Source: Nitrospinae bacterium CG11_big_fil_rev_8_21_14_0_20_45_15 (GTDB lineage Bacteria > Nitrospinota > Nitrospinia > Nitrospinales > VA-1). From it: a DNA stretch of 64,000 nucleotides. The notes beneath the pieces were generated by a model, which saw only the letters and a list, made by a program, of their open reading frames with translations, had not been told where the DNA came from and made no database searches. This document shows, in pieces, positions 52,909 to 64,000 of the stretch. Position numbers and translations under genes: made by a program. Each line of letters starts with the position of its first letter. Positions within the stretch are counted from its first letter, which is position 1. The stretch is taken from the NCBI GenBank assembly GCA_002787235.1, contig PCWG01000015.1, positions 1 through 64,000 of the forward strand, in the 5' to 3' direction.

Positions 52909-54243
52909 TTGATGATGGCAATAAAACGAAAACGAGTTCTAATCATGGGGGCCGCAGGGAGGGATTTTCATACATTCAACACCACCTTCAGAAACGACTC
53001 TTCTTGCGAGGTCGTCGCATTCACCGCGACCCAGATTCCTGGAATTGAAAAAAAGATTTACCCCGCCGCTTTATCCGGCAATCTCTATCCCAATGGAATT
53101 CCCATACATCCTGAAAGTGAATTAGACGATCTCATTCGAAATGAGAAAGTCGACGTGGTTGTATTTGCCTACAGTGATGTCTCTCACGAATACATCATGC
53201 ACAAAGCATCCAGCGTGATCGCAGCGGGAGCAGATTTTTGGTTGCTCGGCACGGCCGCTTCCATGATCCCTTCCAGCAAAAAAATAATTTCCATTTGTGC
53301 GGTACGAACCGGGTGTGGGAAATCTCAAACATCGCGAAAAGTCGCTCAAATTTTAAAAAACTGGGACAAAAATATCGTTGCTGTGCGTCACGCCATGCCT
53401 TACGGAAATCTGGAAAAACAAAAAGTTCAACGCTATGCAACCCTCGACGATCTTACCAAACACGACTGCACGATTGAAGAAATGGAAGAATACGAGCCCT
53501 ATATTGACATAGGCATCCCCATTTATGCGGGAGTCGATTATGAAGCCATTTTGAGGGAAGCAGAAAAAGAGGCCGACATCATTATCTGGGACGGAGGCAA
53601 CAATGATTTTTCATTTTTTCTACCCGATCTCGAAATTGTTGTGATGGATCCTCATCGCCCCGGTGACGAGCTGTCTTATTTCCCTGGGGAAGTGAACCTT
53701 CTACGTGCAGATGTGCTTATAATCAACAAAGTGGATACTGCAGATTACGGCAATGTTCTAAAAATCAGAAATAATATAAGCCATAACAATCCAACCGCCA
53801 CGATCATTGAAGCCGCTTCACCTATTTACGTAGAGCAACCGCAACAAATATCAGGCCAACGTGTTCTGGTCGTCGAAGACGGCCCTACTTTGACCCACGG
53901 AGGAATGAAATACGGAGCCGGAACCTTGGCGGCGCAACGTTATGGAGCCAAAGAAATTGTTGATCCCAGACCCTGGCTGGTCGGAACTCTTATAGAAACT
54001 TTTGAAAAATATCCTGATATCGGTCATCTCCTTCCAGCCATGGGTTATGGTAAGGATCAAATGAATGATTTGCAGGCAACGATCAATTCCGCAGACTGCG
54101 ATTTAGTCATCATTGGCACCCCCATTGACCTGACGCGCATTATAAAAATCAACAAACCCTCTGTCAGAGTGACTTATGAACTACAGGAAATCGGTTATCC
54201 GACTCTGGAGTCCACGTTAAAAGATTTTCTTAATAAAGCTTGA
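52909..54243 (+). CDS. Cyclic 2,3-diphosphoglycerate synthase-like P-loop NTPase
   Basis: VLIMGAAGRDFHTFNTTFRND, P-loop AVRTGCGKSQTSRKV, NKVDTADYGNV; THGGMKYGAGTLAAQRYGAKEIVDPRPWLVGT. Confidence 0.8.
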   Translation: MMMAIKRKRVLIMGAAGRDFHTFNTTFRNDSSCEVVAFTATQIPGIEKKIYPAALSGNLYPNGIPIHPESELDDLIRNEKVDVVVFAYSDVSHEYIMHKASSVIAAGADFWLLGTAASMIPSSKKIISICAVRTGCGKSQTSRKVAQILKNWDKNIVAVRHAMPYGNLEKQKVQRYATLDDLTKHDCTIEEMEEYEPYIDIGIPIYAGVDYEAILREAEKEADIIIWDGGNNDFSFFLPDLEIVVMDPHRPGDELSYFPGEVNLLRADVLIINKVDTADYGNVLKIRNNISHNNPTATIIEAASPIYVEQPQQISGQRVLVVEDGPTLTHGGMKYGAGTLAAQRYGAKEIVDPRPWLVGTLIETFEKYPDIGHLLPAMGYGKDQMNDLQATINSADCDLVIIGTPIDLTRIIKINKPSVRVTYELQEIGYPTLESTLKDFLNKA

Positions 54244-54283: not shown

Positions 54284-55240
54284 ATGACTCGAAAGCCAGT
54301 TCTGTTAATATCATTTGGTGGAAATGCACTCACTCCTGCAGACACAATTCATCCGCATCAAAGGGAAGAATTTGACATCGCATACAAAAGCATGTCTGCG
54401 GTTGTGGACTTAGTGGAAAAGGGTTTTGACAAGATTATACTGACACACGGTAACGGACCTCAAGTCGGACAAATTTTTTTGCAACAGGAACTCACCAAAC
54501 ATGAATTTCCACGGCAAGTCACACTGGATGTATGCGTTGCCGATAGCCAGGGTCGAATAGGATACATACTGCAAAATGTCTTCGATAATATCTGTCAGGA
54601 AAGAAAAATAGATAAAAAATCGTTCGCAGTAATCACACAGGTCATCGTCGATTCAAAGGATCCTGCATTTAACAGACCCACAAAACCTATTGGCCTGTTT
54701 TATTCAAAAATCGATGCCGACAAACTCATCAAGGAACGTGGCTGGGAATTTATGGAAGACGCGGGACGTGGTTATCGACGCGTCGTTGCCTCCCCTATTC
54801 CGCTGGAAATTGTCGAGTCAGAAATTTTCCATGAACTTCTCGAACGTGGCTTTATTGCCATAGGTGGTGGCGGTGGCGGAATCCCGGTGATCAGAAAATC
54901 TAATGGGGCCTTGGTTGGCGTCGAGGCCGTCATTGATAAAGATCGGACCAGTGCGCTTTTAGCAAATGCGTTGAAAGTGGATCAATTGATCATTTTGACC
55001 AGCGTCGACGGTGCCTGTCTGAATTTCAACTCCGCTAACCCTCAGCTCATAAAAGAGGTTACAATAAGTCAAATGGAAGCTTATATCGAGCAGGGGGAAT
55101 TTTCCGAAGGAAGCATGAAACCCAAAGCCGAAGCGGTTGTACAATTTATAAAAAATGGTGGGGAAAAAGCAATCATCGCAAACTTGAACGCCCTGATTCC
55201 TGCGATTGAAGGTAAAGCCGGTACACATGTCACGGCATAA
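54284..55240 (+). CDS. arcC: Carbamate kinase
   Basis: FGGNALTP, THGNGPQVGQIFLQQE, GRGYRRVVASPIP, GGGGGGIPVI, VIDKDRTSALLA, FSEGSMKPKAEAVVQFI. Confidence 0.94.
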   Translation: MTRKPVLLISFGGNALTPADTIHPHQREEFDIAYKSMSAVVDLVEKGFDKIILTHGNGPQVGQIFLQQELTKHEFPRQVTLDVCVADSQGRIGYILQNVFDNICQERKIDKKSFAVITQVIVDSKDPAFNRPTKPIGLFYSKIDADKLIKERGWEFMEDAGRGYRRVVASPIPLEIVESEIFHELLERGFIAIGGGGGGIPVIRKSNGALVGVEAVIDKDRTSALLANALKVDQLIILTSVDGACLNFNSANPQLIKEVTISQMEAYIEQGEFSEGSMKPKAEAVVQFIKNGGEKAIIANLNALIPAIEGKAGTHVTA

Positions 55241-55275: not shown

Positions 55276-56436
55276 ATGACTGAAAAAAAAATCATAGACC
55301 GTGAAGGGTTGAATCAACTCATCAAGGTATTGCTGGATATGGGATTCCAGGTGGCTGGCCCCACCCTTCGAGATGAAGCCATTGTCTATGAGAACATCCA
55401 ATCGATCAAAGATCTTCCTGAAGGATGGACCGATGAACAAGATGGCGGCATCTATCGATTGAAAAAACGTTCGGATAAAGCTTTGTTTGGCTATGTGGTC
55501 GGCCCACACTCTTGGAAAAAATTCCTGCATCCTCCCGAAAGACGTTTATGGAAAGCCACGTTGAATGAATCGGACTTTGAAATCATTCCAGAAGAATCCG
55601 ATCCACGCAAATTTGCTTTTTTGGGAGTCCGCTCATGCGAACTACACGCAATTGCTATTCAAGACAAAGTTTTTTTAGAGGGCAACCACAAAGACCCCTC
55701 TTATCAGCTTCGCAGGGAGAACGCTTTTTTCATCGCAGTTCATTGCGGACAAGCGGGAGGAACCTGTTTTTGCGTCTCCATGAACACGGGGCCTCGGGCG
55801 GAATCCGGTTTTGACCTGGCTCTAACGGAAGTTATCCATGACAACGATCACTACTTTGTCGTTGAAACGGGAAGCGATCGGGGAATGGACGTCATAAAGA
55901 AAATCCCAAACAGAAAAGCCGAAGCCAGGGAAGTCGAGCATGCCGATTCAAAAATTGCTGAAGCTACAGCGCAAATGGGACGCGTTTTAGATACAACAAA
56001 TATCAAAGAATTGCTTTATCAGAATCTGGAGCACCCTCAGTGGGATGACATCGCGAACCGTTGTCTGTCTTGCGCAAATTGCACAATGGTTTGTCCCACT
56101 TGCTTTTGTTCGACGGTAGAGGATGTAACCGACATTACGGGAGATCATGCTGAAAGATGGCAAAAATGGGATTCCTGTTTCACGATGGACTTCTCACATT
56201 TGCATGGTGGCGAAGTACGGACATCCACCAAATCCCGCTACCGACAGTGGATGACGCACAAACTCGCCAGTTGGCAGGATCAGTTTGGTTCCTCTGGTTG
56301 TGTGGGTTGCGGTCGATGCATCACATGGTGCCCGGTCGCAATTGATTTCACGGAAGAGGTTCCAAAAATTTGTGGTTCTGAAAATTCAAACACCGCGGTT
56401 ACTAAAGAAAATGAGGCACCTCATGAAAACTCTTGA
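55276..56436 (+). CDS. hydB: Group 3b [NiFe] hydrogenase iron-sulfur (beta) subunit
   Basis: CLSCANCTMVCPTCFC and CVGCGRCITWCPVAIDF ferredoxin motifs; synteny with hydGDA. Confidence 0.9.
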   Translation: MTEKKIIDREGLNQLIKVLLDMGFQVAGPTLRDEAIVYENIQSIKDLPEGWTDEQDGGIYRLKKRSDKALFGYVVGPHSWKKFLHPPERRLWKATLNESDFEIIPEESDPRKFAFLGVRSCELHAIAIQDKVFLEGNHKDPSYQLRRENAFFIAVHCGQAGGTCFCVSMNTGPRAESGFDLALTEVIHDNDHYFVVETGSDRGMDVIKKIPNRKAEAREVEHADSKIAEATAQMGRVLDTTNIKELLYQNLEHPQWDDIANRCLSCANCTMVCPTCFCSTVEDVTDITGDHAERWQKWDSCFTMDFSHLHGGEVRTSTKSRYRQWMTHKLASWQDQFGSSGCVGCGRCITWCPVAIDFTEEVPKICGSENSNTAVTKENEAPHENS

Positions 56437-56884
56437 GTCCATACTTTCAGTGCATCCCTTTTTTGTAAATCTGGAGTCGAAATACATGGCTCTGATAACA
56501 GGTTGTGCCTCTAATGTCAGATTTGAAGCGGGTGAATTCATTCATCGACAAGGTGAGGAAGCAAACAGCTTTTGTATTATACGGCAAGGTAAGGTGGCGT
56601 TACAGGTATGTCCGCCACACAAGAATCCAGTTACCGTTCAAACCGTGAGCGATGGAGAAATCCTGGGATGGGCCTGGCTGGTTCCACCCTACCATTGGCA
56701 GTTCGATGCACAAGCCGTCGAATTGACACGAGCAATTGTTCTCGATGGCAAGTGTCTTCGAAATAAATGCAATGAAGATCACACTCTGGGTTATGAACTT
56801 CTCAGTCGCTTGCTTCCCATTGTCGGGCAAACCATGGAAGCAACACGGATACAACTTTTGGATCTTTACGGAGCCCGGAGCTGA
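56423..56884 (+). CDS. Cyclic-nucleotide-binding-domain protein embedded in hydrogenase operon (HoxI-like)
   Basis: FEAGEFIHRQGEEANSFCIIRQGKVALQV...VSDGEILGWAWLV; start at MKTLESILSVHPFF; overlaps hydB end by 14 nt. Track ORF starts at 56285. Confidence 0.82.
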   Translation: MKTLESILSVHPFFVNLESKYMALITGCASNVRFEAGEFIHRQGEEANSFCIIRQGKVALQVCPPHKNPVTVQTVSDGEILGWAWLVPPYHWQFDAQAVELTRAIVLDGKCLRNKCNEDHTLGYELLSRLLPIVGQTMEATRIQLLDLYGARS

Positions 56885-56895
56885 GTACTGCAACA

Positions 56896-57735
56896 ATGAA
56901 TCCTATCTCGACATCTCCAATGACTCCATCGCTCTATACGGTCAAGAAAAAGATTGCCGAATCGCACGATACCTTCAGTCTGGATCTGGCCCCAAGAGAT
57001 GGCTCTCCGCTCATTACTTTTCAACCCGGTCAATTCAATATGCTTTATGCATTTGGAGTGGGAGAAGTCCCCATTTCTATAAGTGGACCGGCACCGGGCA
57101 CCTCGGGTTTGATACACACCATTCGAGAGGTAGGGAACGTGACCCGGGCTCTGCATCAATTAAAAAAAGGTGCTACGCTGGGTCTTCGTGGACCTTTTGG
57201 CAGTTCCTGGCCAATAGAAGAAGCCCGAGGAAAAGATGTCGTCATCATCGCCGGAGGCATCGGCCTGGCACCTTTGCGACCGGTCATCTATAAATTACTG
57301 GAACAACGAAATCAGTTCGGAAACATTGCACTCCTCTACGGGACACGCGAGCCCAATGACTTGCTCTTTACAAAAGAGTTTGAAATCTGGCGCGGGAAAT
57401 ACGGAATTCAGGTAAAAATAACGGTGGATACGGCGGATAGTAACTGGCGTGGAAACGTGGGAGTCGTGACCACCTCCATCGCAAGGGTCTCATTCGAACC
57501 CGCCCATACCATTGCCATGATATGTGGGCCAGAGATCATGATGCGTTATGCGGTCCTCGAAATGAAACGTCGCGGAGTGAGTGAAGACCATATCTATATG
57601 ACAATGGAGCGCAACATGAAATGCGCCATTGGTTTTTGTGGACACTGTCAATTCGGACCTGCATTTATATGTAAAGACGGCCCTGTATTCAGATACGACA
57701 AGGTCAAACATTTTTTTGGAATTCGCGAAATCTAA
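56896..57735 (+). CDS. hydG: Group 3b hydrogenase FAD/NAD(P)-binding (gamma) subunit
   Basis: [77 protein letters not shown]. Confidence 0.94.
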
Positions 57736-57737
57736 CA

Positions 57738-58535
57738 ATGACACAAAGCGTAAAAAAACCTAAAGTTGCGGTCTGGAAATTTGCATCCTGTGATGGCTGT
57801 CAACTCAGTCTCCTGGATTGCGAAGACGAGCTTCTTGCCGTCACCGAACAAATTGAAATCGCAAATTTTCCTGAAGCCTCTCGAGCTGTGATCAAAGGAC
57901 CGTACGATCTCTCTCTGGTTGAAGGCTCTATCACAACACCGCACGATGCAGAACGCATTCAAATGGTTCGCAGTGTCTCAAAATTCGTCATTACCATTGG
58001 CGCATGCGCCACAGCAGGTGGGATACAGGCCCTGCGAAATTTTAAGGATGTGAATGAATTCATTTCCGTTGTGTATGCAAGCCCGGATTATATAAGTACT
58101 CTGGACAAATCCACTCCTATCTCCGAACATATCAAAGTTGACTTCGAATTGCGCGGGTGCCCGATTGACAAAATGCAACTGGTAGAAGTGATCAGTGCGT
58201 TTCTCAAAGGCAGAAAACCCAACACCCCAGCACACAGCACCTGTATTGATTGCAAACGTCGCGGCACCGTTTGTGTGATGGTTTCACAAGGGAAAATGTG
58301 TATGGGACCCGTCACACACTCTGGTTGTGGAGCCCTCTGCCCCAGCTACAACCGTGGATGTTACGGATGTTTCGGCCCCAAAGAAACGGCCAATACCAGT
58401 TCCTTGAGTTCCTGGCATAAAAAACAGGGTTCAGATAATGATGAAATTCTAAGGGCTTTTCGGGGATTCAACGCCTACTCTGAACCCTTTCGCAAAGAAA
58501 GCGAATTGCATGAAAAAGAAAACACGAACGATTAA
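57738..58535 (+). CDS. hydD: Group 3b hydrogenase small (delta) subunit
   Basis: [69 protein letters not shown]. Confidence 0.95.
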
Positions 58536-59805
58536 AGTCGATTACCTGGCTCGGGTAGAAGGTGAAGGCGGTCTTCATATCAAAGTCAAAAACGACGAAG
58601 TCGTTGATGTGAAATTAAAAATATTTGAACCTCCTCGATTTTTTGAAGCCTTTCTGAGAGGACGTGATTATAAAGAGGCTCCCGATATCACCGCACGTAT
58701 TTGCGGCATCTGCCCCGTGGCCTATCAAATGAGCACCGTCCACGCCATGGAGAATGCGTTTGGCGTTCAACTGGACCGACCCTTGCGCGATTTGCGCCGA
58801 TTGCTTTATTGTGGAGAATGGATCGAAAGCCACACGCTACATATCTATATGCTTCATGCTCCCGATTTTCTGGGTTATCCAGATGCCATCCAAATGGCTA
58901 AGGATCATAGGGAAATCGTTGAACGGGGCCTGAAGTTGAAAAAGGCCGGCAACGCAATTGTTTCCATGCTTGGAGGTCGAGAGATTCACCCTATCAATGT
59001 TCGCGTCGGTGGATTTTACAAATTATTTTCCCGACAGGAATTCGAACCTCTGATCGAAACCTTAAAGTGGGCGCGTGACGCCGCGTTGGAAACGGTCCGA
59101 TGGACTTCTCAACTCACGTTCCCGGAATTTGAGCAGGATTACGAGTTTGTAGCGTTGCGACATCCTGATGAGTATCCTTTCAATGAGGGCAACATTGTTT
59201 CAAACAAAGGACTGGACATCAACTGCTCTGAATATGAAGATCATTTTGAAGAACAGCATGTAGAACATTCCAATGCATTGCATTCGATATTAAAAAAGCG
59301 CGGAGCGTATTTTGTCGGCCCCATGGCCCGCTACAATTTAAACTTCGACCGACTGTCCCCACTGGCTCAAGAATCAGCTCTTCAATCCGGTTTGGGAAAA
59401 GAATGCAGAAATCCGTTTAAAAGCATCAGCATTCGAAGCATTGAAGTGCTGTATGCCTGTGATGAGGCCTTGAGAATTCTTGAGGCTTATGAAAAGCCGG
59501 AGCAACCTTTTGTGACAGTAGAACCTCGGGAAGGTATCGGCTATTCTTGCACAGAAGCACCGCGAGGCATTTTATATCACCATTACCGTCTGGATGAAAA
59601 AGGAATCATTTTAGAAGCCAAGATCGTTCCACCAACCTCTCAAAATCAAAAAACCATTGAGAATGACTTGAAAGAATTTGTCCCCAAATATATCAATCTG
59701 TCAAAAGAAGAATTGACCTGGCAATGCGAACAAGCCGTTCGCAACTACGATCCATGCATCTCATGCGCAACCCATTTTCTTAAATTAGACATTGTACACT
59801 CCTGA
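58510..59805 (+). CDS. hydA: Group 3b hydrogenase large (alpha) subunit
   Basis: L1 motif [15 protein letters not shown]2 motif DPCISCATH followed by C-terminal extension FLKLDIVHS. Confidence 0.96.
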
Positions 59806-60262
59806 GAATACAACCCTGATCTTGGGCGTCGGTAATTTATATCGATGCGACGACGCCATAGGAATTTTAATCGCCCGAAATTTAAAAAATAAAAATTGCG
59901 GGAATATGATTGTCCGCGAACAAAGTGGTGAAGGAACGTCTCTCATGGAAGCCTGGCAACACTTCAACAGGGTTATCCTCGTAGATGCGGTGTCATCCGG
60001 GGCATCGCCGGGAACCCTGCATTGTCTGGATGCTTCAACAGATTCTATTCCCTCTAGATTTTTCTCCTGCTCATCGCATAATTTTAGTGTTGCAGAGGCC
60101 ATTGAACTCGCACGGACCCTGAATCAACTGCCCCAATCCCTGAAATTGTATGGAATTGAAGGAAAGAATTTTCAGCATGGAGAAACCGTGACTCCCGAAC
60201 TGGAGGCAATGATCGAACCCGTTACCAATCAAATTATTCAATTTGTTTCTTCACCCCATTAA
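59792..60262 (+). CDS. Hydrogenase maturation protease
   Basis: [59 protein letters not shown] start overlapping hydA by 14 nt. Confidence 0.88.
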
Positions 60263-60271
60263 AGAGGTCAC

Positions 60272-60535
60272 ATGCACGAACAATCATTGATGGTCGATTT
60301 GATGCGCAAAATAAACGCAATTGGCACGGAACAAAAAGCTAAAAATATCGTCCGTATCAAAGTCAAACTCGGTGCCCTTTCACATATTTCGGCCGATCAT
60401 TTCAAAGAGCATTTTGTTATAGCGGCGAAAGGCAGTTGTGCCGAAGACGCTCAATTGGATGTCGAAGTTCTCACCGATTTGAACGATCCACAAGCTCAGG
60501 AAATTTTATTGGACAGCATCGAAATTGAAGAATAG
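60272..60535 (+). CDS. hypA: HypA-like protein lacking the zinc-finger cysteines
   Basis: MHEQSLMVDLMRKI...IVRIKVKLGALSHISADHFKEHF...LLDSIEIEE matches HypA ends; only one Cys in 87 aa. Confidence 0.75.
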   Translation: MHEQSLMVDLMRKINAIGTEQKAKNIVRIKVKLGALSHISADHFKEHFVIAAKGSCAEDAQLDVEVLTDLNDPQAQEILLDSIEIEE

Positions 60536-62906
60536 TTCCATGCGTCCGCCCCTACTCCTCAGTCGTTTGCACTTGTCTATTCAAGGATTGTTGCAAGGCA
60601 TCGGCTTCCGCCCTTTTATTTACAATCTCGCTCATGCAATGGGCCTGACCGGCTGGATTCAGAATTCACCGCAAGGCGTATCGATTGAAGTGGAAGGCGA
60701 ACGCGAAAAACTTGATGATTTTTTACAGCGTGTATTGACGGAAAGCCCTCCGAACGCATTCATTCATCATTACGAAACTTCTTATCTTGCAGCTACAGGT
60801 TATGAACATTTTGAAATAAGAGAGAGCAAGAGCACAGGCGAACAATCGACTCTCATTTCACCGGACATTGCAACCTGCTCCGATTGTCTGCAGGAATTAT
60901 TTGATCCTGCAAATTCCCGATATTTGTACCCCTTCACAAACTGTTCTCACTGCGGTCCTCGTTTCAGCATCATCGAATCGTTGCCTTACGATCGTCAGAA
61001 CACCGCAATGAAAATATTTGAGATGTGCGCTGTCTGCCAAAACGAATACAACAATCCACGAGATCGAAGATTTCATGCCCAACCCACTGCCTGCCCTGAT
61101 TGTGGACCGTATTTGGAGTTCTGGGATTCCAAATGCCTGTCCAAAAGAAAAGAAGCTCTAGACGCTACTGTAACCGCTTTAAGGGATGGGGCCATCGTTG
61201 CTGTTAAAGGTTTGGCTGGTTTTCATTTGATGGTCAGTGCTTGCGACGATGACGCCGTCCGCCGACTGCGCCTGCGCAAACAGAGAGAAGCAAAACCCTT
61301 TGCCTTAATGTTTCCCGATTTGCAAAGTGTAAAAAAACTGTGCGAATGCTCTTTACTGGAAGAACAACTGTTGCTATCGCAAGAAGCACCGATCGTTTTA
61401 TTACAACGCCGACTCGACGCAATCCAAAATGAATGTTTTGCCATCTCTCGTGAGGTGGCACCATCGACCCCTTGCCTTGGTGTGATGTTCCCCTCCAATC
61501 CCCTGCATCACATTCTAATGAGACAGTTGAATGCTCCTGTAATTGCGACCAGTGGCAATGTATCGGATGAAACTATTTGCACGCAGGATGAAGAAGCTTT
61601 TTCGCGCCTGCACGGCATCGCCGATTTTTTTCTCATTCACAATCGACCGATTGTACGTGCTGTCGACGATTCTATCGTGCGTGAAATTTTGGGTTCCCCT
61701 CAGGTGTTACGACGATCCCGAGGATATGCCCCCTCCCCCATCACCTGTAAAAATTCGGATCGGGATTACATCAGTGTGGGAGCTTATCTGAAAAACACGA
61801 TCGCTCTCGCAAAACACAGTCATATTATTTTAAGCCAGCACATTGGTGATCTGGGAAATTTGCAGACCACAGAGGCTTTTGAAAGTACCATCCAATCGTT
61901 TACAAAACTTTATGACATTCAACCCGACGCTGTCGCTTGTGATTTTCATCCCGATTACGCCTCTACCGAATGGGCGGATAAAAATCACGAAAATCTCATT
62001 CCAGTTCAGCACCATGTCGCGCACCTTTTTTCCTGCATGGCCGAGCATGATTTGGAAGGTCCGTTATTGGGCGTCACCTGGGATGGTTCGGGATATGGAT
62101 TGGATGGAACCTTATGGGGAGGAGAATTTTTTCACGTCAAAAAAGAATCCATTCATCGAGTCGCTTGCTGGAAACCTTTCCCTTTACCGGGTGCAGAGGC
62201 CGCAATGAAAGAACCTCGACGCAGTGCTCTGGGTCTTCTCTATTCTGTTTTAGACGAATCTATTTTTGATCGCCCCGAACTGATGAAGTTTTTCAATTCA
62301 GAAGAAACGGTCGTTCTGAAAACCATGCTGGATAAAAAACTCAACTGCCCGGTAACATCGAGTTGCGGAAGGTTGTTCGATGCCGTCGCTTCAATGACAG
62401 GCATTCGGCAGGTGAATTCATTTGAAGCGCAAGCCGCCATCGAACTCGAATTTTTCAGACAAGGTTCATTTTCTGAAAGTTACTATCCTGTGGATTTGGT
62501 CAAAAACTCAAAACCGCTTCCAATTTTTAAAAACAACAAAATCATACCCGCCTGTTATGATTTGAATTTAAAATATCATTTGGATCAAACTTCGCTCGTC
62601 CGAGAGTTGTTGCAGGACATTGTCGGGAAATGCAGTCTTAACCTCATCCTGACCAAATTCCACAATGCTCTTGCAGAGTCGATCGTGTCTGTCGCAAAAC
62701 AAATCGGTGAAGAGCGCGTGCTTTTATCTGGTGGTTGTTTCCAAAATAAATTTCTGACCGAACGAACGGTTCAACGATTGCTCCGGGAAGGTTTTCATCC
62801 CTACTGGCACCAGCGCATTCCCCCGAATGATGGGGGGCTGGCTCTGGGCCAAATCTTTGCCGCTTCATGGAGTGAAAGAAAAAAGGAAGGTTTCTCATGT
62901 GCTTAG
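60525..62906 (+). CDS. hypF: Carbamoyltransferase HypF
   Basis: Acylphosphatase domain (SIQGLLQGIGFRPFIYNLAH), two zinc fingers (CSDCLQEL...CSHCGPRF; CAVCQNEY...CPDCGPY), YrdC-like and Kae1-like domains. Confidence 0.97.
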   Translation: MKNSSMRPPLLLSRLHLSIQGLLQGIGFRPFIYNLAHAMGLTGWIQNSPQGVSIEVEGEREKLDDFLQRVLTESPPNAFIHHYETSYLAATGYEHFEIRESKSTGEQSTLISPDIATCSDCLQELFDPANSRYLYPFTNCSHCGPRFSIIESLPYDRQNTAMKIFEMCAVCQNEYNNPRDRRFHAQPTACPDCGPYLEFWDSKCLSKRKEALDATVTALRDGAIVAVKGLAGFHLMVSACDDDAVRRLRLRKQREAKPFALMFPDLQSVKKLCECSLLEEQLLLSQEAPIVLLQRRLDAIQNECFAISREVAPSTPCLGVMFPSNPLHHILMRQLNAPVIATSGNVSDETICTQDEEAFSRLHGIADFFLIHNRPIVRAVDDSIVREILGSPQVLRRSRGYAPSPITCKNSDRDYISVGAYLKNTIALAKHSHIILSQHIGDLGNLQTTEAFESTIQSFTKLYDIQPDAVACDFHPDYASTEWADKNHENLIPVQHHVAHLFSCMAEHDLEGPLLGVTWDGSGYGLDGTLWGGEFFHVKKESIHRVACWKPFPLPGAEAAMKEPRRSALGLLYSVLDESIFDRPELMKFFNSEETVVLKTMLDKKLNCPVTSSCGRLFDAVASMTGIRQVNSFEAQAAIELEFFRQGSFSESYYPVDLVKNSKPLPIFKNNKIIPACYDLNLKYHLDQTSLVRELLQDIVGKCSLNLILTKFHNALAESIVSVAKQIGEERVLLSGGCFQNKFLTERTVQRLLREGFHPYWHQRIPPNDGGLALGQIFAASWSERKKEGFSCA

Positions 62907-63151
62907 CGATACCGGGTAAAATAATCCAGATATCAGGAGATGATCCCTTGATCAGAACGGGCCATGTCAGCTTTGGCGGCATCATCAAAGAGATCAATCT
63001 GGCTTATACTCCAGAAGCAACTCTGGATGATTATGTGATCGTCCATGTTGGATTTGCCATCAGCATCCTTGATGAAAAGGAAGCGCAAAGAGTTTTTGAC
63101 ACCCTGAATCAGCTCGATTCATTTGGAAATTCAGAGGAACGCCTCCAATGA
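62897..63151 (+). CDS. hypC: Hydrogenase assembly chaperone HypC
   Basis: [12 protein letters not shown]...[16 protein letters not shown]...[20 protein letters not shown]. Confidence 0.96.
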
Positions 63152-64000
63152 AATATGTAGATGAATACAGAAATTCCAAAGAAGCAAAAATGTTTGCCGA
63201 AGCCATTGCCCGCACCGTCACGCGCACATGGACCGTGATGGAGATTTGCGGAGGTCAAACACATTCCATAGCAAAATACAGTTTGCAGGATTTATTGCCG
63301 CCTGAGCTTTCCCTGTTACATGGCCCCGGATGCCCCGTATGCGTCACGCCAGTAGAGCTGATCGACAAGGCCATTCATATCGCGGCAATGCCCAATGTGA
63401 TTTTCTGCTCATTCGGAGACATGTTGCGAGTTCCCGGTTCCAGTGCCGATCTGTTCAAGGTCAAATCCAAAGGCGGCGACATACGCATCGTTTATTCGCC
63501 CATGGATGCCCTGAACATTGCCCGGGACAATCCTCAAAAAGAAGTGGTATTTTTCGCAATCGGATTCGAAACTACGGCTCCAGCCAACGCCATGGCTATT
63601 TATCAAACAAAATCAGAAAATATTAAAAATTTATCTTTTCTGGTTTCACAAGTGATCGTTCCCCCTGCCATTTGTTCGATTTTGGAATCACCTCAAAACC
63701 GCGTGCAGGGATTTTTAGCGGCGGGTCACGTTTGCACGATCATGGGCTACAGTGAGTATGAGCCCATCGCAAAGGACTACAAAATCCCTATCGTTGTAAC
63801 AGGATTCGAGCCTCTGGATATCCTTCAGGGAATTTTCATGTGTGTCAAACAACTGGAAGAAGGACGCTTTGAAGTGGAAAACCAATATTCCCGCTCGGTC
63901 CGCAAAGAAGGAAATTTAGCGGCTCAAAAAATAATCCAGGAAGTCTTTCAAATAATTCCCCGTCAATGGCGCGGCATTGGAGAAATCAAACAAAGTGGGC
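63148..64000 (+). CDS. hypD: Hydrogenase formation protein HypD (runs off window end)
   Basis: [73 protein letters not shown]...[17 protein letters not shown]...[13 protein letters not shown]; no stop within window, so absent from the ORF track. Confidence 0.96.

Follow-up and report, generated by a model that had tools for sequence, protein, structure and literature searches.

The hydrogenase operon in the analysed stretch of 64,000 nucleotides (the window) encodes an 87-residue HypA without a zinc domain, here called sHypA. It is a member of a conserved zinc-less subfamily whose genes are linked to group 3b operons devoid of HypB. The zinc domain of HypA and the HypB GTPase are usually regarded as essential. 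The occurrence of the same half-size HypA without HypB in about 14 phyla suggests a simpler, HypB-independent route of nickel insertion.

The product of the sHypA open reading frame, MHEQSLMVDLMRKINAIGTEQKAKNIVRIKVKLGALSHISADHFKEHFVIAAKGSCAEDAQLDVEVLTDLNDPQAQEILLDSIEIEE, starts with MHEQSLM, ends with SIEIEE and contains one cysteine and no CxxC motif. It matches the Pfam HypA profile PF01155 with 42.8 bits (gathering cut-off 28.9, E 5.8e-11), residues 1–66 aligning with positions 1–66 of the 112-position profile; the CxxC...CxxC part of the profile has no counterpart in the protein. The NCBIfam equivalog TIGR00100 covers the same range, 1–66, with 39.9 bits and stays under its cut-off of 88.1. 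Direct BLASTP of sHypA against a full HypA of the same family gave no alignment, so that the kinship with it is visible only by profile and fold. The AF2 model of sHypA (pLDDT 87, pTM 0.74) retrieved solely solved HypA structures in Foldseek at E<1e-3, with TMq values of 0.68–0.82. By these computations, sHypA is homologous to HypA, shares its fold and has lost the zinc site. The model includes a strand at residues 78–85 and, as its order is that of the C-terminal strand of HypA, the zinc domain was apparently excised from a loop; judged from the model and an unrooted tree (see below), it seems to have been either excised in this way or never inserted. Strictly, sHypA is not a canonical HypA, having neither the zinc site nor a HypB partner, but a homologue of the HypA nickel domain.

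The original prediction had read the gene as a HypA in the right operon position that lacks the central domain with two CxxC pairs and keeps a single cysteine; profile match, translation and the position between protease and hypF bear this out. Its proposal of an in-frame deletion stands as regards the missing domain but not as an isolated event at this locus, since the short form is a single-clade subfamily in about 14 phyla. Membership of a different known family, which had been named as a refutation, is not found: HypA is the sole Pfam family matched by the aligned members (72/72).

The features of the window are collected in the table below. The operon runs in the order β-cNMP-FNR-small-large-protease-sHypA-HypF-HypC-HypD-HypE, with HypE following HypD on contig C26 up to position 65306, and the protease lies directly upstream of sHypA. 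The large subunit matches the alpha subunit of P. furiosus sulfhydrogenase I and T. kodakarensis HyhL (5yxy_A, 235 bits) over its full length. The label "group 3b" denotes gene content, i.e. beta (FeS), gamma (FAD/NAD), small and full-length sulfhydrogenase-type large subunits, together with homology to sulfhydrogenase/HyhL; none of the hydrogenase subunits of the operon attains the cut-off of the NCBIfam ShyA/HydA equivalogs. As separate observations, the hydrogenase operon of Nitrospinota starts with the carbamate kinase and a P-loop protein, the latter without a Pfam or NCBIfam match and presumably COG2403-like; the kinase could supply carbamoyl phosphate, the substrate of HypF. Likewise, the cyclic-nucleotide-binding-domain gene stands between beta and gamma subunits in 59/75 sHypA loci, across phyla.

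Table. Features of the hydrogenase operon in the window
Feature	Position	Strand	Evidence or remark
COG2403-like (presumed name) P-loop protein	52909..54243	+	GKS and NKxD motifs; Nitrospinota loci only
Carbamate kinase, heads the operon	54284..55240	+	NF009007 329.7 bits, over cut-off; Nitrospinota loci only
4Fe-4S beta subunit	55276..56436	+	PF17179 2.5e-33
Cyclic-nucleotide-binding-domain protein	56285..56884	+	PF00027 3e-13
FAD/NAD(P)-binding gamma subunit	56896..57735	+	Pfam profile match
Hydrogenase small subunit	57738..58535	+	NF040836/NF040831 162–169 bits, under their cut-offs
Group 3b-type [NiFe]-hydrogenase large subunit	58510..59805	+	full-length homology
HycI/HyaD-type hydrogenase maturation protease	59792..60262	+	PF01750 7e-12; TIGR00072 102 bits, over cut-off
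sHypA, zinc-less HypA (nickel domain and closing C-terminal strand)	60272..60535	+	87 aa
HypF carbamoyltransferase	60525..62906	+	TIGR00143 809 bits; directly downstream of sHypA
HypC	62897..63151	+	TIGR00074 75.9 bits
HypD	63148..64000	+	PF01924 E 2e-153; runs to ~64239, past the window

The window genome, that of a nitrite-oxidiser-type bacterium (3.37 Mb, 97.5% complete), contains one HypD and one HypA, namely sHypA, with the next best HypA matches at about 16 bits or less. The second, full-length hypA for which a genome search had been advised was not found, and a canonical HypA elsewhere in this genome was rejected. The initial remark that the 64-kb window holds no hypB is confirmed and extends to the genome, where a TIGR00073 search found no HypB. 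The sole match, at 30 bits, is a CobW/COG0523-type GTPase (C37:465169-466137). As the PF02492 matches are Era and one COG0523 GTPase, a hidden HypB elsewhere in the window genome was rejected as well.

Scanning the genome collection for the short form by means of its alignment yielded 75 loci in about 14 phyla (Nitrospinota, Pseudomonadota, Planctomycetota, Verrucomicrobiota, Myxococcota, Chloroflexota, Armatimonadota, Ignavibacteriota, Fidelibacterota, Bdellovibrionota, Binatota, Zixibacteria, Omnitrophota and KSB1), a lower bound because the scan uses two peptide patterns. The 72 aligned proteins have 84–95 residues; CxxC occurs in none (0/72) and 47 have no cysteine at all, so the length of 87 residues is not a sequencing artefact. 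In a tree of 68 nickel-domain columns, with 59 short rows (near-copies thinned) and 21 full-length HypA, the short forms make up one clade with support of 99/98; the inner branching is unsure, as 68 columns are few. Eleven sHypA pairs gave NG86 dN/dS values of 0.05–0.12, i.e. sHypA is under purifying selection. Among 299 Pseudomonadota genomes, sampled without selection for the short form, all 75 with HypA, the chosen centre genome not counted, carry it full-length, meaning that the HypA profile is matched to position 110 or beyond; an apparent second zinc-less case, G166, was rejected since the gene is cut by the contig end. HypA thus occurs in two discrete forms, of which the short one is rare. 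The sHypA operons are essentially one lineage, transferred around or retained from an old ancestor, rather than the outcome of many independent losses.

The surroundings of sHypA are similarly constant. The next annotated gene upstream is the protease in 70/74 loci, the next one downstream HypF in 60/74, and the large subunit is present in 69/75. HypB is found in none of the 75 loci, and the 40 whole sHypA genomes contain neither a HypB over cut-off (0/40) nor a full-length HypA (0/40). Within the order of the window genome, the short form is the only HypA in 23 genomes, the window genome counted, and none of these has HypB (0/23), compared to 19/22 relatives with full-length HypA (Fisher p 6e-10, a value that ignores shared ancestry). 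Of the three relatives that have full-length HypA without HypB, one is fragmented, one 59% complete and one divergent. Weak HypB matches fell on ORFs of 444–472 aa, some of which share a contig with sHypA; this initially made the P-loop protein a promising candidate for a HypB substitute (see below). Absence of the zinc domain and absence of HypB go together, and this coupling is a correlation within essentially one operon lineage. Elsewhere in the collection, a distant, 96%-complete genome (G087) encodes two divergent HypA proteins of nearly the whole profile (C1:2115949 and 2725246) and no HypB over cut-off.

The N-terminal Met-His-Glu nickel motif is strictly retained. M1, H2 and E3 are present in 72/72 aligned sHypA, as are H43 and H47, which form an HxxxH motif. 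H38 occurs in 61/72 and is replaced by Q or N in the remaining 11; position 40 is Ser or Thr. The conservation of H43 and H47 does not stem from the search itself, because 12 of the 72 rows do not contain the exact HFxxHF motif used for searching and yet have both histidines. In the AF2 model, they lie one turn apart on a helix comprising residues 41–52, just past the loop that holds position 40. The region bearing His98 in T. kodakarensis HypA is lost. In T. kodakarensis, formation of the HypA-HypB complex draws in His98, which makes up a nanomolar nickel site together with His2 and the N-terminal amine; the site of free HypA in H. pylori uses Met1, His2, Glu3 and Asp40 (PMC7055735; PMC5557546). 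Single zinc-cysteine mutants of H. pylori HypA leave 9–60% of hydrogenase activity, several being as low as the hypA null (PMC5557546); the zinc domain is therefore needed in this HypB-dependent system.

From these data we consider it reasonably probable that sHypA is a group 3b nickel chaperone cut to the nickel domain of HypA, with a self-completed nickel site and without a nucleotide-driven HypB step. Ni(II) would be bound by the predicted ligands Met1 (amine), His2 and Glu3. Further ligands are probably supplied by the protein's own histidines, H43 and H47 on helix 2 and usually H38 in the preceding loop, which may stand in for the ligand that joins the site of canonical HypA solely on assembly with HypB. 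If the histidines complete the site in this manner, HypB-induced closure would not be needed. HypF, HypE, HypC and HypD would first place Fe(CN)2CO in the large subunit, sHypA would then hand over nickel without HypB-dependent nucleotide turnover, and the dedicated protease would close the site last. Two points speak against this scheme: position 38 is Q or N in 11/72 sequences, and hypB is reported to be located elsewhere in Rhodothermus marinus, which has the same cluster (according to passages of PMC7285500). Still, sHypA most likely acts as a self-sufficient nickel chaperone with ligands deduced from conservation and model, and it most likely does the same job as canonical HypA, as judged from sequence. 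That it binds nickel through these residues, with no other replacement for HypB, is likewise the most likely reading. The suggestion of the original prediction that nickel delivery may work differently here is upheld in this conditional sense. A role of the zinc domain in HypB-coupled loading fits its absence where HypB is absent. Whether sHypA, by means of a histidine-completed site, alone replaces the nucleotide-hydrolysing HypA-HypB pair as a minimal HypB-free apparatus for [NiFe] nickel insertion appears to us evenly balanced; if true, the main job of the zinc domain would be HypB-coupled gating of the nickel site.

Alternatively, a different GTPase of the metallochaperone type may have taken the place of HypB, namely UreG, a member of COG0523/CobW or, in Nitrospinota, the P-loop protein, so that only the zinc domain was dispensed with; we consider this rather unlikely. 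UreG has been put forward for Nitrosococcus oceani AFC132 (in passages of PMC7285500), and UreG-like matches are indeed present in 9/40 sHypA genomes (three confirmed with TIGR00101, the rest called by a conserved CPHT-type motif and alignment range); together with one CobW-like match they account for the sub-threshold HypB matches in 10/40 genomes. However, 31/40 genomes have no UreG-like match, and 17/40 have no PF02492 (HypB/UreG/CobW) member at E<=1e-10, isolates of Nitrosomonas mobilis and three of Novosphingobium included, in a census that scored the best 64 candidates for a few large genomes and for which completeness of the 40 is unstated. UreG as a general explanation is at odds with this census and was rejected as a general substitute, being missing from most sHypA genomes; the data argue against UreG necessarily replacing HypB. 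The window genome does encode one COG0523 GTPase, and the P-loop protein sits within hydrogenase operons of Nitrospinota but not in sHypA loci of other phyla, so that it was rejected as a general substitute, too. No other gene recurs across sHypA loci: a conserved extra operon partner was rejected, as the clusters of unannotated ORFs amount to apparent opposite-strand shadow ORFs of the operon genes and a few small chance families.

A less probable explanation gives sHypA a docking or scaffolding role only; nickel would then reach the open site passively or be drawn from the pool in the cell. High nickel partly rescues hypA and hypB mutants (PMC3287977; PMC12134894), which would agree with such a role, but a scaffold would not need invariant M1-H2-E3 or the gained, equally invariant H43/H47, and a pure scaffold is disfavoured for this reason. 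It is also possible that an unrelated or unlinked nickel donor acts instead. Decay of the operon or gene, with the short HypA as a truncation remnant, is highly improbable: physiological evidence for hydrogenase activity is lacking in Nitrospinia (PMC10839748), but the single clade of constant length over about 14 phyla, the low dN/dS and the intact hyp operon around sHypA all contradict it.

Compared to canonical HypA/HybF (T. kodakarensis 3a43/5aun, H. pylori 2kdx/6g81), the self-sufficient chaperone envisaged here shares the N-terminal M-H-E, the nickel-domain fold with its closing C-terminal strand and the site among hydrogenase maturation genes. It differs in lacking the CxxC...CxxC zinc domain of about 30 residues and the ligand from that part, in the gained helical HxxxH, and in the absence of HypB from its genome. 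T. kodakarensis HypA serves HyhL, the homologue of the window's large subunit, yet it is full-length and works with an ATPase-type nucleotide-hydrolysing HypB, neither of which applies to sHypA. The absence of hypB from clusters of the hypAFCDE type was noted in 2020 for several bacteria, Rhodothermus marinus excepted; the passages in question describe a cluster of the same type as the window operon in Nitrosococcus oceani AFC132, name Nitrospina gracilis among the carriers, favour UreG as substitute and do not mention loss of the HypA zinc domain (PMC7285500). HypB absence from such clusters was thus already known, and a search of the open-access literature, outside which most subscription papers lie, returned no report of zinc-domain loss or description of a zinc-less HypA. 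A review from 2025 states that the mechanism of a nickel-binding HypAB pair seems to have been kept throughout evolution (PMC12134894). A widespread lineage without both zinc domain and HypB represents a natural experiment on the role of each. With short HypA, HypC, HypD, HypE, HypF and protease, it also provides a reduced set of maturation proteins for producing group 3b hydrogenases in other hosts.

A related genome encodes another zinc-less protein, an 80-aa mini-HypA (L043:17953-18192; G026:C70) that also adjoins a protease gene. In contrast to sHypA, it belongs to a membrane hydrogenase/Mrp cluster resembling group 4g, lacks H43/H47 and falls outside the sHypA clade; its genome has two HypB and a full-length HypA. 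Finally, the related genome G002 carries two copies of sHypA type on contigs C15 and C85 (L045 and L046), possibly reflecting two operons.
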